DNA from: Nitrososphaeraceae archaeon
Lineage (GTDB): Archaea; Thermoproteota; Nitrososphaeria; Nitrososphaerales; Nitrososphaeraceae
Length of the DNA: 64,000 bases
Assembly (NCBI GenBank): GCA_031316115.1
Contig: JALDRC010000003.1
Location: 124,001 to 188,000 of the forward strand
Direction: 5' to 3'
The notes beneath the pieces were generated by a model. It made no database searches and had not been told where the DNA came from. It saw nothing but the letters and a program-made list of their open reading frames with translations. The stretch's first letter is position 1; the number at the start of each line of letters is the position of its first letter. This document shows positions 1,264-61,131 of the stretch, piece after piece. The position numbers and the translations under genes were made by a program.

Positions 1264-2469
1264 ATGGTTCAATTTCTTATACTGCAAATTTTAATAGTTT
1301 CGTTAATATTCTTAACTTTTGCCACCACTTTAAAATTTGGCTATTCTGAACCAATTATTAATGATCCTTCTTTAAGTGTACAAATTATAGCAAAAGATTT
1401 TTCCAAACCAACAGGAATGGTATTTTTAGATAACAACATTATGGTTATTGAAAAAGACGGAGATGTAAAATTAATTTCAGAGGATACCAAAGAAGAATCT
1501 ACATTATTACAATTCGATGTTGATACTAAAAGCGAAAGAGGATTGTTAGGAATTGAAACAAACGGAAATGATGTTTTTTTTTATCTCACTGATGCAAGTT
1601 CAGATCCAATTAAAAATAGAGTTTTTAAATACTTGTGGAATGGAAATGAATTGTCTAACCCCAAATTGATATTAGATCTTCCTGCGTTACCAGGACCCAA
1701 TCACGATGCTGGAAAACTAGTTCTAGAAAAAAATAATCAAAATGGAATAACGGAAAATCTTTATGTAATAATTGGTGATCTTAAACATGATGGAATACTT
1801 CAAAATCAAAAATCGGAGGATGAACCCGATGATACAGGAGTAATATTCCGAATCAATGCATTAGATGGTTCACCAGTAGACAATAATCCGTTTATTGCAA
1901 ACTCTGATTTTTCAAAATATTTTGCATACGGAATTAGAAATAGTTTTGGCTTAACATTGGATCCAGAATCTGGTTATCTATGGGAAACTGAAAACGGTCC
2001 TAGTTCATATGATGAGATTAATATTGTTAGACCAGGATTCAATGGTGGATGGAATGAAGTAATTGGTCCTATAGACAGAACAAACAAAAATGAAGGAGAT
2101 CTAGTAATATTGCCTGGAGCGCATTATAAAGATCCAATCTTGAGCTGGAAAGACCCAGTAGCTTTGACTGATATCGAATTCCTGAATTCTTCCAAGCTTG
2201 GAATAGAATATATGAACAAAATGTTTGTTGGTGATTATAAGAATGGTAATTTATATTTTTTATCCCTTAATTCGGACAGAGATGATTTAGATATTAATAT
2301 GTATCCAAGTGAATTGCATGATAGAGTGGTTGATAGTGACGAAGAATCATCATCAATTTTATTTGGTACTGGCTTTGGAGGTATATCAGATATTAAAACA
2401 GGACCAAATGGTGATCTTTATGTTTTATCTTTTAAAGATGAAGTTTTATATAAAATATCTAAAAATTAA
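1264..2469 (+). CDS. Exported PQQ-dependent sugar dehydrogenase-like protein (glucose/sorbosone dehydrogenase family)
   Basis: The 401-aa protein begins with a signal peptide (residues 4-25) and continues as a six-bladed beta-propeller of the soluble glucose/sorbosone dehydrogenase family. Family hallmarks visible in order are GLLGIE near residue 94, GPNHDAGKL near 145, a YGIRNSFGLTLDP segment near 222, then WETENGP, DEIN and PGFNGGWNE. The H in GPNHD and the R in GIRN sit where PQQ or catalytic residues lie in characterised members. Members oxidise sugars or related alcohols outside the cell with PQQ, but many archaeal homologues have no known substrate, so the activity is inference. The gene stands alone, with the convergent 107-aa gene ending directly beside it. 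Confidence 0.85.
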   Translation: MVQFLILQILIVSLIFLTFATTLKFGYSEPIINDPSLSVQIIAKDFSKPTGMVFLDNNIMVIEKDGDVKLISEDTKEESTLLQFDVDTKSERGLLGIETNGNDVFFYLTDASSDPIKNRVFKYLWNGNELSNPKLILDLPALPGPNHDAGKLVLEKNNQNGITENLYVIIGDLKHDGILQNQKSEDEPDDTGVIFRINALDGSPVDNNPFIANSDFSKYFAYGIRNSFGLTLDPESGYLWETENGPSSYDEINIVRPGFNGGWNEVIGPIDRTNKNEGDLVILPGAHYKDPILSWKDPVALTDIEFLNSSKLGIEYMNKMFVGDYKNGNLYFLSLNSDRDDLDINMYPSELHDRVVDSDEESSSILFGTGFGGISDIKTGPNGDLYVLSFKDEVLYKISKN

Positions 2470-2470
2470 C

Positions 2471-2794
2471 CTATCTAGAGATATCGATTATCAAGGAAGT
2501 CGGGATGTCATTAGCTAAGGACCAAATTAAAAAATCATCATAAATTTCAATCCAATCCATTCCTTCGGATACTTTAGCCGTCAAAATGATTTCTTTTTCA
2601 CTGTTTGTAAAGAAACTGGCAATTACTTCTCCATCGGATTTCATCAATTCTTTGGGTAATACTATTCCTTTCCTTCCTCCTTGAATATTTATCGTGTACG
2701 TGGTGTCCTTACAGGACGCTTTCCCTACCAAGTAACTTTGTCCCAAGTCCATCTTAAGAGAAAATTCTAAAGGATAATCAAAAATCTGACTCAT
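2471..2794 (-). CDS. Conserved-looking protein of unknown function, 107 aa
   Basis: I chose the ATG at 2794 (protein begins MSQIFDYPL); the frame is open upstream to 2899 but that extension is hydrophobic, lacks good coding character and looks like untranslated sequence. The protein is small, soluble and beta-rich in its middle (YTINIQGGRKGIVLPKEL), ending in an alpha/beta segment. The IxxxGGRKGIVLPKEL part faintly resembles an AbrB-type swapped-hairpin DNA-binding motif, but this is not strong enough for a call. It converges on the PQQ-dehydrogenase-like gene, with stop codons only a base or so apart. Confidence 0.55.
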   Translation of the reverse strand: MSQIFDYPLEFSLKMDLGQSYLVGKASCKDTTYTINIQGGRKGIVLPKELMKSDGEVIASFFTNSEKEIILTAKVSEGMDWIEIYDDFLIWSLANDIPTSLIIDISR

Positions 2795-3228
2795 TGTGTT
2801 TAGTAATATAAACGCAGAATAATTATTTAAATGTCTCAAGTTCTTAATTAATAGTGCCAACAAGTTGCTAACAAAAAAGAAACAGGAAATAACTATCAAT
2901 TTCTATCGTTATTATTATCCATTATTAGAACTTAATTGACTTTATTTTTTTGAAATAAAATTCATTTTTCAAAATAGTTATTATCTTTAACTAGATCATT
3001 ATTATACAGAAAATATTGTAACAAATTATGTAGATATACGAGAGTAGGATCCTTGTGTAGAAATTTATAATAACCATCAAGTGATTAGTTTTTACCACTC
3101 AAACGTCGATTATTACTTTAAATCATGGTTTTCTGAAATGGAGGATAAGTCGTGCTTCAATCCAATTATCTCGCAATATTCATTATTAACTTATGTAAGC
3201 GGATCACTGTAAACTTTCAATAGTAAAC
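2795..3228. other. Intergenic region, no gene seen
   Basis: About 430 bases of AT-rich sequence between two minus-strand genes. All frames are broken. The part next to 2795 should contain the promoter of the 107-aa gene; nothing else is recognisable. Confidence 0.45.
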
Positions 3229-18839: not shown

Positions 18840-19610
18840 CTACTTGTTCTTTGTTGAGTCTGAAGTGCTTGTTGAGTCTGAAGTGCTTGTTGAGTCTGAA
18901 GTGCTTGTTGAGTCTGATTTGGAGACACTTTGTGAAAGATATGACTCCTGGAAGATAATTTGTTTTAGAGATTTAATAAATTTAAAAATATCTGTAGAAA
19001 CTGCACGTTTGAGAATTTGCAATCCTTCCAAAAGAAAAAAATCTTCAGGAATATGAATTTCAAGAATTTCTCCGTTGATTTCGAATTTTATTTGCTCTGT
19101 GTTGATAGGAAGACGTCTTTTGATTAAATGAATTATCTTGTCTTCATCTGTATCCAATTTCTTAAGAATATTGATATTATATACTAGATTTCTACTTGCA
19201 AGTCTATGATTATAATCTATTTGAACACGACCTGACCCTATATATCGTACTATTCCTGCCCTTTCATCAATCTCCACAACATCACCAACTTTGATATCGG
19301 AAGCTTTTTCACCTAATTTTCTTTGTGGAATCATTCTAACTTTGCTAGGGTCCCTTTGGCCGAATCCTTTTTCTGGAGGAATTTCTATATCTAGTGTCTC
19401 ACCAACATTCCCTTTTGAAAGGACTTCATCCACCCCTTTAAGAACCCATCCTTCCCCTACCGATACTAGTCGAGGCTCATATTTTTTCACTGGGTCGTAT
19501 AAATTCGAATCTTTTGCATCGTTTTCTCGTGTAGTTTCAAAAATCTCATTATTATCTTTTATTCTAGCAGTATAATCTAATAATATTAAGGATCCTTTTT
19601 CAAAAGGCAT
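18840..19610 (-). CDS. FKBP-type peptidyl-prolyl isomerase with a repetitive Ser/Thr/Asp tail
   Basis: A 256-aa cytosolic isomerase and chaperone of the SlyD-like archaeal FKBP class. The FKBP fold (LILLDYTARIKDN, GWVLKGVDEVL, IPPEKGFGQRD) is interrupted by the chaperone insert (about 85-135, GDVVEID...GSGRVQIDYNH) and followed by a helical/beta C-domain to about residue 230. The last 25 residues are near-perfect repeats of SDSTST, encoded by an 18-bp tandem repeat. No signal peptide is present. The gene converges with the G1P dehydrogenase gene. Confidence 0.9.
   Translation of the reverse strand: MPFEKGSLILLDYTARIKDNNEIFETTRENDAKDSNLYDPVKKYEPRLVSVGEGWVLKGVDEVLSKGNVGETLDIEIPPEKGFGQRDPSKVRMIPQRKLGEKASDIKVGDVVEIDERAGIVRYIGSGRVQIDYNHRLASRNLVYNINILKKLDTDEDKIIHLIKRRLPINTEQIKFEINGEILEIHIPEDFFLLEGLQILKRAVSTDIFKFIKSLKQIIFQESYLSQSVSKSDSTSTSDSTSTSDSTSTSDSTKNK
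18852..18918 (-). repeat. 18-bp tandem repeat encoding the FKBP tail
   Basis: The unit gttgagtctgaagtgctt occurs three times perfectly plus a partial fourth copy. Read on the minus strand it encodes SDSTST repeats at the C-terminus of the FKBP protein. The multiple of three keeps frame whatever the copy number. Confidence 0.9.
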
Positions 19611-57215: not shown

Positions 57216-57860
57216 TTATCTCACAGTTAAATCTAATTTGAAATTGTCAAGGTTGGTAATCAATTTTGAAGGTCCCATATAATTGCTTGTAAAATCTACA
57301 GCTTGAATTGAATTTTGCATGGATGATATACACTCAAATGCTAATATATTTTGAGAGGTAGTGCAGAATTTTATCAATTCATTGTTAAATTCTGTTAAAG
57401 AGTTACTTTTTAGTATTGTTTCATCATTATTGTCTTTATTTACTACTTTTAGTATAAATTTAACTATATCATTATTAGGTACATCCTGTTTAGATTGTGC
57501 TGTAGGCTGAGTGTTAGATTGAGGATTATTAACATTAAAAGAACCGGTATTTGATGCGATAATTGAATTTATGTCACGTAATGATTTTGGTTCTTGTTGA
57601 TTATTTTGAATTTGATCTTGGTTGGGGGCTGCATTCATACCACTTACTATAGAATTCATTGTACTATCAATTATATTTCCTCGACTAACCTTATCAAGCA
57701 TATTTATAATTGCAGTATCAATGGCCGTTGTATTTGCTTGATTATTTTTTGTATTAATATTTGTAGGTTGAGCAAACGTTTGTAAAAATTGGACAATATT
57801 AGATCCTATAAAAATTGTTATGATAGTTATAACTACAATCAAGACCATATTAATTCGCAT
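57216..57860 (-). CDS. Exported Asn/Gln-rich protein of unknown function
   Basis: A 214-aa protein with an N-terminal signal peptide or anchor (residues 3-24, ending FAQP) and a low-complexity N/Q/T region (about 33-130: NTKNNQANTT, QNNQQEP, NVNNPQSNTQPTAQ). The last 80 residues form a more ordered domain with two cysteines (KFCTTSQNILAFECISSM). No family recognised. It lies upstream of the LamG protein gene on the same strand and both may be surface proteins. Confidence 0.65.
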   Translation of the reverse strand: MRINMVLIVVITIITIFIGSNIVQFLQTFAQPTNINTKNNQANTTAIDTAIINMLDKVSRGNIIDSTMNSIVSGMNAAPNQDQIQNNQQEPKSLRDINSIIASNTGSFNVNNPQSNTQPTAQSKQDVPNNDIVKFILKVVNKDNNDETILKSNSLTEFNNELIKFCTTSQNILAFECISSMQNSIQAVDFTSNYMGPSKLITNLDNFKLDLTVR

Positions 57861-58055: not shown

Positions 58056-60356
58056 TTATTGGTTATCAGTCATATTTGGTTTATCTATAAGTTCCATTAT
58101 ACAGGTTTTAGGACTTTTGGTTATTTCTCCACTACAACTTGAAGCTCTATTGATCTGATATCCAAATAAGTCAATTGGCTCTACTTCATATTTTCCAGGA
58201 TCGATGGATATAAACTGAATATCAGAACTTCCTCTAATAACATCAGGAACAGGATTTTCTCCTTTAACTACAAATGTAAAATCTGATGGTGCTTTATCTC
58301 CTCCATGAATATTTAATACCTCTATGATAACCCTTAATTTTGCATCATTCAATGCTGGTGGTATAGGTCTATTGTTATTGCTAATTTGAGAGGTTTCCTT
58401 GGGAATAGACGGTTCTAATGGCTTGGTTGTTACTTGGCTCTGGTTGGTTGTTACTTGGCTCTGGTTGGTTGTTACTTGGCTCTGGTTGGTTGTTACTTGG
58501 CTCTGGTTGGTTGTTACTTGGCTCTGGTTAGTGGCTAGAGATGGAATTTGCTGTATATCATCTAAGGTGATTACGCAATCTTTACTATCACCTGCTCCTA
58601 TTGTTCCTGAACAACCAGCAGAATATATTGCTTTGTAGCCTATTGATTCAGATATAGTGACATTATAATTTCCTGCCTTTAGCGAGACTACTTGTCCGTC
58701 AGGATTTCCTAGAAATGAACTAGGAGTAGCTTGTATACCTGTTACTGAAATGTTAAAATCTTTAGGTTGTTTATCGCCACCGTCATTATTGATAACTTTG
58801 GTTAAAATCATAACTTGAGAGGAAGATGAATCGGTTAGAGAAGGTACCTGTTTACCAAATATGCTTATATCAGATATGCTAGACCAGTTATTCATACTGT
58901 TACCAGTGACTGTAATCCTTACAAATTTGGCTGTTGTATCTGGAATATCATAGACTTCTAATTTTGACGTCTCTCCGCTGCTTCTATTCGTGAATATTTG
59001 TCTATAATCACTTCCATCAGAGGATACTGAAACTGCAAAGTCTAGATTTCTAAGGTGTCCCTTATACCAAGCTATTCCAATATCGCAAATCTCTGTTTCT
59101 TTACCTAGATCTATATCAATCCAGGATTCCAAACCAAGATTTGACCATCTGGTTTCTAAATTACCATCCACAGCGTCTACTTCCGGATGATTAGGTTGAT
59201 TTCCTATAGATGATACTCGTTCAGGGTTTATAGGAATTTCTGGGCATGGTGAGGGGAAGCCGGGAACAAATGGATTATTTATATCGATATCTGTAATACT
59301 AGCCCAATTATTCAGAGTATTCCCTATTACATCAATTTTTAAAAATCGTGTTTTGATATCAGGTATATCATATTTTTCTGGTTCACTAGTGAGACCACTG
59401 CTTGTTTCTGAGAAAATATTACTAAAGATTTCACCATCAGATGATGTAGAAATTGTAAATGTCATTTTCCTCTCGTCACCCTTGTACCATGATATATCAA
59501 TGTTACAAACTTCTTTTTCCGTTCCAAGATCCAAAATTAACCAAGAATTAAGTCCTAAGTTCGACCATCTAGTTGATTTTTTACCATCAATCGCATCTGT
59601 AGGTGGACGGCCCTCTTGATTTCCTATCGCTCTAACATCTACAGGTACTTCTTTTTTACAGGCTGTGTTATCTCCAAAAGATACAAAAACTATTTGACCA
59701 TCTAGATTAAACTTGTTATTAGCAAATCCATCATATACTTCTGCATTAGTTAAAGCTCTGTCCCAAATTCGGATTTCATCTATTTCTCCTTTAAACAATT
59801 TGTCTTTAAATAATGAATTTGCACCTACCGTTATACGAGTTTTTCCAGTCGAATCAGGTTCAGCTCCTTCTGTATTCATGTCGTTAACTAAAACTCCGTC
59901 GACAAATAATTTCAGAATTGAACCATCATAGGTTAAAGTCACATAATGCCATTCATTATCGTTTAGTTTATTTGGTGAGCTAATAAAATAGTTTGTTCCA
60001 TCTAAAGTTTCAAATCCAGCATGCAGTTTTCCCATAGGATCGAAAAAAATTCCAAAATTCATATTTTCTCCATTAGCTTCTGATCCTATGCCTCCTTTAT
60101 CTATGAGAAAAGAGTCAACCGAGTCATTGGAACCAGTTTTAAACCAAGCAGCTACCGAAAAATTATTCAATTGAAATAATTCTGAATCTTTAATATATTT
60201 GAAATTAGTACCTGTGAATTGACCAGTTTTACCTATTTGTGCATCTGCTGAGTATTTTTGAATAATATTAGAAGCTAGAATTATAAATGCTAAAAAAGTA
60301 ATAAATATCGAAATCGTCCTTATATTTTTATTATATATATATTTTGACTTCGCCAT
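58056..60356 (-). CDS. Large exported LamG and discoidin (F5/8 type C) domain protein
   Basis: A 766-aa surface protein. After a membrane leader (11-34) comes a LamG/concanavalin domain (about 40-205: FSVAAWFKTGSND, EWHYVTLTYDGSILKLFVDG, GEIDEIRIWDRAL). Two F5/8 type C domains follow (about 225-365 and 375-510), each with an RWSNLGLxSW segment. Then two related beta domains (about 520-605 and 680-765, each with a GGDK...DF opening and a Cys pair) flank a linker of five TNQSQVT repeats. LamG and discoidin domains bind glycans; this suggests adhesion or matrix binding. Confidence 0.88.
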   Translation of the reverse strand: MAKSKYIYNKNIRTISIFITFLAFIILASNIIQKYSADAQIGKTGQFTGTNFKYIKDSELFQLNNFSVAAWFKTGSNDSVDSFLIDKGGIGSEANGENMNFGIFFDPMGKLHAGFETLDGTNYFISSPNKLNDNEWHYVTLTYDGSILKLFVDGVLVNDMNTEGAEPDSTGKTRITVGANSLFKDKLFKGEIDEIRIWDRALTNAEVYDGFANNKFNLDGQIVFVSFGDNTACKKEVPVDVRAIGNQEGRPPTDAIDGKKSTRWSNLGLNSWLILDLGTEKEVCNIDISWYKGDERKMTFTISTSSDGEIFSNIFSETSSGLTSEPEKYDIPDIKTRFLKIDVIGNTLNNWASITDIDINNPFVPGFPSPCPEIPINPERVSSIGNQPNHPEVDAVDGNLETRWSNLGLESWIDIDLGKETEICDIGIAWYKGHLRNLDFAVSVSSDGSDYRQIFTNRSSGETSKLEVYDIPDTTAKFVRITVTGNSMNNWSSISDISIFGKQVPSLTDSSSSQVMILTKVINNDGGDKQPKDFNISVTGIQATPSSFLGNPDGQVVSLKAGNYNVTISESIGYKAIYSAGCSGTIGAGDSKDCVITLDDIQQIPSLATNQSQVTTNQSQVTTNQSQVTTNQSQVTTNQSQVTTKPLEPSIPKETSQISNNNRPIPPALNDAKLRVIIEVLNIHGGDKAPSDFTFVVKGENPVPDVIRGSSDIQFISIDPGKYEVEPIDLFGYQINRASSCSGEITKSPKTCIMELIDKPNMTDNQ
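58424..58530 (-). repeat. 21-bp tandem repeat in the LamG protein gene
   Basis: Five nearly identical copies of ggttggttgttacttggctct. Read on the minus strand they encode TNQSQVT, each with one N-x-S glycosylation sequon. The 21-bp length keeps frame, so copy-number changes would only lengthen or shorten the linker. Confidence 0.9.
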
Positions 60357-60498: not shown

Positions 60499-61131
60499 TT
60501 ATTTGTTTTTCAGATAAAGATTTAATGTTTGTTTACCAAAATCAGAACTGACTTTTTTATCTTCTGTCATTCCACATTCCACACATTTTACACTATTATT
60601 TAACTTGACGGTGTCTCCACCGCAATTATTACATAAACAATATACAACACCTAGATTTTTATCATTTATAGTAGCATGAACAGATGAATTCATCAAGCTG
60701 AAGACCCGTCCTCTAACTATATCTCCTACCCTGAATACGAATCTTGGTTTTCTTTCTCTGTCTCTCCTGAAGTGATGACCTCCACTATCAGAAATTTTGG
60801 TAGATGCTATCGCTGAGAGACCTGAATCTGATTTTATATTATTTATATATAATATTCTAATGGAGATCATACTGCTGAATAACATTTCAATATATCCAAC
60901 CAATTCATCACCTATTTTAGGAAAAGTAGCAACATTCTTTCTATTTATGCTGACTCGCCTATATTTAAAGTCGAAATTTCCTGTTCCGAGTGCAGAAGAC
61001 CTTACAGAGCCATCTACTTCATAAGTATTGTTACCACTTTCAAATTCTTCAATATACGCAATATGATCGCCTGGAAGGAGAAATTTATCATCTACATATC
61101 TCAAACCTTTTAATTTTGTAACTTTACTCAT
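60499..61131 (-). CDS. csl4: Exosome subunit Csl4
   Basis: A 210-aa RNA-binding cap protein of the archaeal exosome. The N-terminal domain (LLPGDHIAYIEEF) is followed by an S1 domain (about 65-155: PKIGDELVGYIEMLFSS, FRVGDIVRGRVFSLMNSS) and a zinc ribbon at the C-terminus with cysteines in CNNCGGD and CVECG. The order N-domain, S1, Zn-ribbon is diagnostic. It recruits substrates to the Rrp41-Rrp42 ring. Upstream lies a 46-aa membrane protein gene. Confidence 0.93.
   Translation of the reverse strand: MSKVTKLKGLRYVDDKFLLPGDHIAYIEEFESGNNTYEVDGSVRSSALGTGNFDFKYRRVSINRKNVATFPKIGDELVGYIEMLFSSMISIRILYINNIKSDSGLSAIASTKISDSGGHHFRRDRERKPRFVFRVGDIVRGRVFSLMNSSVHATINDKNLGVVYCLCNNCGGDTVKLNNSVKCVECGMTEDKKVSSDFGKQTLNLYLKNK

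Follow-up and report, generated by a model that had tools for sequence, protein, structure and literature searches.

The window, a 64,000-nucleotide stretch of DNA from a Nitrososphaeraceae archaeon, encodes a 766-residue multidomain protein, probably exported, that we read as a multivalent lectin for acidic glycans, either secreted or retained at the surface, whose spacer is probably N-glycosylated and variable in length; we give this reading a probability of slightly under 60%. The protein occupies a single unbroken reading frame that spans exactly positions 58056–60356 on the minus strand. Its architecture is solid: a signal region is followed by a LamG domain, two F5/8 type C (CBM32-like) domains, a SpaA-type domain, five TNQSQVT units and a second SpaA-type domain. 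For the repeat linker, the reading that we find most probable, though unproven, is a glycosylated spacer of adjustable length, and we infer glycan occupancy, a role in adhesion or in a matrix, and disulfides in this protein.

In the mechanism that we propose, the signal peptide would export the protein, and the LamG and two CBM32-like domains at the front would bind glycans outside the cell; for the CBM32-like pair, these would most likely be uronic-acid ends of the cell's own or neighboring exopolysaccharide. The two SpaA-like modules at the back, with two conserved cysteines each, would form a stalk, and the flexible linker that joins them would offer an Asn to AglB in each repeat. N-glycans could make this linker stiff, hydrophilic and protease-resistant, and repeats gained or lost by multiples of three bases would lengthen or shorten it and leave the frame intact.

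Domain architecture and predicted ligand

Residues 1–39 (60240–60356, minus strand) form a probable signal peptide, recognized by a hydrophobic stretch and by a cleavage position, judged by eye, after ADA39 and before QIG. A39, Q40, I41 and G42 are invariant in an alignment of the six orthologous sequences, the window's own included, and the full-length structure model has a helix at residues 2–35, overlapping this region. The hydrophobic N terminus and the conserved A/QIG-type site support the export predicted in an earlier note on this DNA, and the conserved A39/Q40 junction suggests that the signal peptide would be removed. No C-terminal hydrophobic segment was seen by eye in the translation, and apart from the signal region, an N-terminal segment that may or may not be cleaved, the protein has no visible anchor. 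The same note had called the protein giant, a description that we reject at 766 residues; a paralog reaches 1,402.

The LamG domain spans residues 47–231 approximately (59664–60218, minus strand). Its Laminin_G_3 match in Pfam (residues 55–207, 1.7e-27) scores 96.9 bits against a curated cut-off of 27.6 and covers positions 9–150 of the 151 in the profile. The two F5/8 type C domains follow on the same strand at residues 232–366 (59259–59663) and 371–502 (58851–59246), with F5_F8_type_C matching in two stretches at 116.3 bits against a cut-off of 28.2 (1.2e-33). One LamG and two discoidin domains, as proposed from the first inspection of the sequence, are thus recovered above curated cut-offs in a protein that looks exported rather than cytosolic. 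The proposal that such a combination is uncommon in archaea fails within this family: LamG and discoidin domains also occur in one frame in another genus (L022), and LamG and F5/8C share, by coordinates, one 1,029-residue frame (G030:C21) in a further genus of the family.

Against PDB sequences, the F5/8C domains find their best matches in the CBM32 of AlyQ (7d29/7d2a) and in YeCBM32 (2jd9/2jda), with E values of 6.4e-28 and 2.9e-18. According to passages of the AlyQ study (PMC5651945), D209 and T214 form the Ca site of its CBM32, R248 may bind a uronate carboxyl, and the YeCBM32 equivalent of W303 matters for polygalacturonate binding. Equivalents of all four residues are kept in 12/12 F5/8C domains of the orthologs; in the window protein the Arg is residue 296 in domain 1 and 436 in domain 2, and the Trp is residue 351 and 491, respectively. 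The window domains therefore share with AlyQ CBM32 and YeCBM32 the structural Asp and Thr of the Ca site and the Arg and Trp of the proposed uronate site, but they stand as two copies behind a LamG domain, in an archaeal protein without a lyase or other catalytic domain. The profile matches and conserved ligand residues support glycan binding, in agreement with the label 'glycan-binding-type' given earlier, and an acidic glycan would be our best guess for the ligand. This site does not single out the window protein, because among 39 other discoidin domains of at least 90 residues (loci L018–L041) 26 have the Arg and Trp pair, ten have Arg and Tyr, and three differ.

SpaA-type prealbumin-like domain 1 (residues 503–606; 58539–58850, minus strand) reaches the SpaA_2 cut-off of 25 with 25.4 bits, and domain 2 (residues 658–758; 58083–58385, minus strand) falls below it with 21.0. 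The two are 30% identical and both cysteines are kept, which bears out the pair of similar beta domains that the earlier note had seen. In the orthologs, SpaA_2 scores 36.8 bits in two stretches of L013, and L016 is unlisted for this profile. A model of domain 1 built from a 20-sequence alignment has a pLDDT of 90.6. In Foldseek its top matches, the best at E 4.9e-4, come mostly from Streptococcus pilins and pilus adhesins; TM-scores reach at most 0.60 among the 50 matches listed, which also include SpyCEP-type proteases (within the first 20) and UGGT; a profile of the domain gave 0 matches to PDB sequences at E 0.1. The window protein thus shares with Gram-positive pilins and adhesins (SpaA_2, PF19403) a profile match at the cut-off, for domain 1, and fold matches. 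It differs from their modules in the weakness of the structural scores and in the two conserved cysteines of its domains, and a sortase signal was not seen in it by eye.

In searches with the whole protein, Pfam gave no catalytic domain match, NCBIfam gave only a sub-threshold TafC match, and a scan of genome contigs gave one distant LamG match, in a Paceibacterota MAG. The full-length structure prediction has a mean pLDDT of 53 and was used for linker disorder and general beta content only; in a fold search with it, the 50 matches listed are mostly F5/8C-type proteins (neuropilin, factor VIII and AlyQ).

As a candidate lectin for acidic exopolysaccharide, the protein has an ortholog in 6/6 examined genomes of its genus, its own included, and no match at 1e-75 in any of the 64 other genomes searched in the family. 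The five other orthologs are 54–56% identical to it. A gene like the one upstream in the window (60499–61131, exosome-type, with an ECR1_N match in the window) precedes 5/5 of them, and a gene similar to the downstream one follows in 4/5, the fifth contig (L049) stopping just after the array; neighbors in other genomes were matched by eye. The downstream gene in the window (57216–57860, minus strand) encodes 214 residues, is probably exported, judged by eye, has no Pfam match at E 0.001 and is a possible partner gene. Its counterparts in other species (L045–L048) have Ser/Pro-rich stretches or repeats, among them SSLPPSSSPN ×4.8 with an NSS sequon in L048, and the window gene has a Gln/Asn-rich stretch instead. 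The genome itself encodes an archaeal AmoA (2.3e-118), so the host is an ammonia-oxidizing archaeon.

Surface lectin or free extracellular protein

The earlier note took the protein for a surface adhesin. The word 'adhesin' is unproven, and 'surface' could be wrong because no anchor was seen. The protein might instead act as a scavenger free in the extracellular space, as an accessory factor that targets polysaccharides or as a structural protein of the matrix, and we consider this rather unlikely, although several observations lean toward it. The C terminus shows no hydrophobic segment by eye, the A39/Q40 junction suggests loss of the signal peptide, and tandem-CBM32 proteins already described in the family carry an acid phosphatase. 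Passages of PMC11131427 describe these as extracellular proteins of Nitrososphaera-associated NS-delta and NS-epsilon archaea, highly expressed in delta MAGs, and its authors suggest that CBM32 and GH5 proteins may be co-secreted. The proteins share with ours the archaeal family, a signal peptide and contiguous CBM32, or F5/8 type C, modules (two or three there); the 3CBM32 protein ends in an acid phosphatase, unlike the window protein. The CBM32 section of that paper mentions no LamG or SpaA-type domains, repeat linkers or sequons, and the word 'glycosylation' is absent from its text. Extracellular tandem CBM32 was thus already known in the family, and the LamG/SpaA layout and the sequon-repeat linker were not found in those passages.

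Four further loci (L018, L020, L021 and L026) encode three discoidin domains and a phosphatase-like end, and resemble the published 3CBM32 type. In relatives, discoidin or LamG domains are also joined to what we take to be metallophosphatase- or subtilase-like parts, which again would suit an accessory factor. Against this stand the lack of a catalytic domain match in the window protein (Pfam) and its SpaA-type modules, which are typical of surface stalks and whose top fold matches are mostly pilins and pilus adhesins. We continue to favor a lectin that is secreted or retained at the surface.

Two other groups of archaeal proteins invite comparison. The LamG-domain and giant surface proteins of nanohaloarchaea, in the parts of PMC10266531 that concern them, are likewise archaeal, have a proposed role in cell–cell interaction and carry predicted N-glycosylation sites; they belong to DPANN ectosymbionts and include giant Ig-repeat proteins, and those parts describe no sequon-bearing short repeat linker. 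Large biofilm adhesion proteins of Nitrososphaera viennensis and Nitrosopumilus maritimus, about 1000–3000 residues long, have been proposed to attach these ammonia oxidizers, and Nitrosocosmicus is reported to be without large adhesion proteins (passages of PMC12448741). The words discoidin, laminin, concanavalin and lectin are absent from the text of that paper. In the open-licence full-text papers searched we found no description of the window protein or of archaeal sequon-repeat linkers.

The repeat linker and its variation between species

The two SpaA-type domains are joined by a linker that holds a perfect 21-bp array (58423–58529, minus strand), found by repeat search at 107 bp, 5.1 copies, 100% matches and a score of 214. 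It reads in phase as (NQSQVTT)5 and carries five NQS sequons, the whole protein having 12; parsed instead as TNQSQVT ×5, it takes its first Thr codon, an ACT rather than ACC, from immediately outside the perfect array. The surrounding linker is predicted to be disordered, with pLDDT below 50 at residues 602–671 in the full-length model. The earlier note had the LamG, discoidin and beta domains separated by five such units, each with an N-x-S sequon. The five units and the NQS in each of them stand, but all of them are found between the two SpaA-type domains, with none separating LamG from the discoidin domains or these from each other.

TNQSQVT is absent from the linkers of all five other genomes examined in the genus. 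SNNLT arrays take its place in four species, with three (L013), eight (L014), seven (L015) and eight (L017) sequon-bearing units, and the remaining ortholog (L016) has two ANNLSTIT units at the same position; the counts, taken from draft assemblies, may be inexact. An N-x-S/T sequon is kept in every linker unit in all six species. Full units are codon-identical within each of five genomes, and between genomes they use CTG ACA, CTT ACA or CTT ACC. Fourfold sites (linker columns included) differ by 19–44% among the SNNLT species and by 60–67% from the window. Because units are identical within genomes despite this divergence, the arrays were probably re-expanded or homogenized after the species split. 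The homogenized arrays and the differences in unit and copy number would fit length change by slippage or unequal recombination.

The idea that copy number shifts within populations to tune the protein, which would make the array a contingency locus, seems to us quite improbable. It would account for the perfect repeats, for units and copy numbers that differ between species and for a paralog in the same genome with a frame break inside its repeat array. The periods of 21, 15 and 24 bp are, however, all multiples of three, so on/off switching is not expected, and a spacer that varies in length with its frame intact remains our preferred reading. The broken paralog, of SpaA type (L010:958–2076 and 2057–3055), is interrupted inside a CTAGQHFDTTTNSCVPDTPQPPV array, and its second frame continues with more repeats and a part that we take to be phosphatase-like; the break may reflect an unstable repeat, a pseudogene or a misassembly.

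Among paralogs, sequon repeats are a frequent choice and no rule. Own-genome LamG/SpaA-type paralogs have sequon-bearing linkers before LamG, made of SNESVNQSL (two sequons, L055) or QANTTMA (L058), and others have arrays without a sequon, made of PPTTEQ (L050) or a Cys-containing CTAGQHF... unit (L053).

Sequons, AglB and probable N-glycosylation of the linker

The genome has one STT3/AglB match, with WWDYG present. In N. viennensis, N-glycosylation at N-X-S/T was found on an S-layer protein and two multicopper oxidases, only three proteins exceeding the threshold, and in Np. piranensis no such protein was detected (passages of PMC12153357).

In the window's own genome, N-x-T occurs 176 times in 67 exported ORFs where 105 are expected (1.68, 95% interval 1.25–2.14), 81 times in 57 membrane ORFs (62 expected) and 265 times in 267 soluble ORFs (266 expected; 1.00). 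The exported/soluble split follows a crude hydrophobicity rule, and the count covers 749,934 bases, leaving out L051 (which overlaps the window), two duplicate proteins and 11 array-bearing ones. A second genus (g2), which we take to be Nitrosocosmicus, gives N-x-T ratios of 2.04 in 42 exported and 1.04 in 161 soluble ORFs. Such enrichment speaks for N-x-T acceptors being in use. N-x-S is not enriched in exported ORFs, either in our genome (114 against 123 expected, 0.93) or in g2 (1.00); because the window linker offers only N-x-S, the case for its own repeats is weaker. The earlier proposal of a glycosylated spacer thus gains indirect backing from the sequons in six species, AglB, the N-x-T enrichment and the N. 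viennensis precedent, and is weakened by the unenriched N-x-S.

That unenriched N-x-S would also suit a plainer account, in which the linker is a disordered polar spacer without glycan and its sequons arise as a by-product of the preference of an AT-rich genome for Asn, Ser and Thr codons. The window has a G+C content of 0.311, and the chance of a sequon in shuffled unit residues is 0.50 for TNQSQVT, 0.83 for SNNLT and 0.71–0.72 for ANNLSTIT, so single units hold a sequon no more than composition predicts. We collected arrays of at least three copies in exported ORFs, in stretches from our genome (793,441 distinct bases), the other genomes of the genus and g2. Of these, 14/26 are eligible, being able to hold a sequon, and one is present in 12 of them where 6.2 would be expected (P 0.0005); in soluble ORFs 2/13 arrays are eligible and 0 have one. 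Within this set, ANNLSTIT of L016 and the short array of L013 fall below the three-copy rule, L015 and L017 are merged with L014, and a 4.5-kb overlap between L078 and L122 in the genus set leaves the list unaffected because arrays were merged by unit.

One unit, GNDWLDGNE... in L100, we take to be an RTX-like calcium repeat whose sequon is probably incidental. Without it, a sequon is present in 11/13 eligible exported arrays, where 6.0 would be expected (P 0.0019), and without it and the seed family the count is 9/11 (P 0.0042). The set mixes stretches picked by homology with stretches picked by position, and L144 (G017:C1:440001-460000, g2) covers a discoidin match and so was not blindly picked. 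Position-picked stretches without L144 give 4/5 against 2.32 expected (P 0.12) with the RTX-like unit dropped and 5/6 (P 0.029) with it kept; with L144 the corresponding counts are 5/6 (P 0.076) and 6/7 (P 0.019). The pooled support for sequons therefore leans on homology-picked loci, and the position-picked 4/5 falls short of significance, in line with an AT-rich by-product.

That account sits poorly with the pooled exported arrays, which keep their excess without the seed family, and with N-x-T enrichment in exported and not soluble ORFs of the same genome sample. It is also at odds with g2, where two stretches have a G+C content of 0.32–0.33 and yet the discoidin proteins (L025, L039 and L040, each with two near-identical discoidin domains) carry linkers of TDPNPG (or PNPGTD) or PTP type. 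N-rich linkers are thus not a necessary outcome of low G+C, even though N-rich arrays do exist in other g2 proteins. We regard a by-product of base composition as unlikely and retain the N-glycosylated spacer.

Cellulase linkers and mucin tandem repeats are mostly O-glycosylated. As in the window protein, they provide a flexible region with sugar acceptors, and the fungal cellulase linker joins a carbohydrate-binding module to another part (PMC3490864 and PMC8980628); the window protein, which is archaeal, differs in offering N-glycan sequons, within perfect short repeats, as its candidate acceptors. More broadly, we entertain as a tentative proposal, possible at less than even odds, that exported proteins of soil-type ammonia-oxidizing archaea repeatedly evolve arrays with one sequon per unit. 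These would be evolvable N-glycan rods in which units and copies turn over fast and the sequon is selected, with length set by repeat number and stiffness by AglB. If true, archaea would have mucin-like glycosylated spacers, but with N-glycans and with repeats rebuilt in each species. The arrays would then also offer a simple test of the purpose of N-glycosylation in ammonia oxidizers, for which the glycoproteome, as described in passages of PMC12153357, yielded few targets.

The AglB/STT3 of the window's genome (L043:1432-4167:+; C1 STT3 match 375228-376394) carries a prolyl isomerase domain of cyclophilin type at its C terminus (PF00160, 4e-48, residues 769–912). Among relatives, 14/27 AglB loci share this layout, and they span three families of the order; the 13/27 loci without the domain include some fragments. 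We found no description of an AglB–cyclophilin fusion in the literature searched.

Further exported-class ORFs have a sequon in each unit: NATSGST ×7.4 (L134:4280+), NATSSA ×17.2 (L144:5140-), DTNSTG ×5.7 (L142:18472-) and QTTSNFTIKDP ×7.8 (L101:3409+). The window itself holds a second perfect array, of 18 bp ×3.7, which encodes STSDST near the end of a 256-residue soluble-class ORF (18840–19610).
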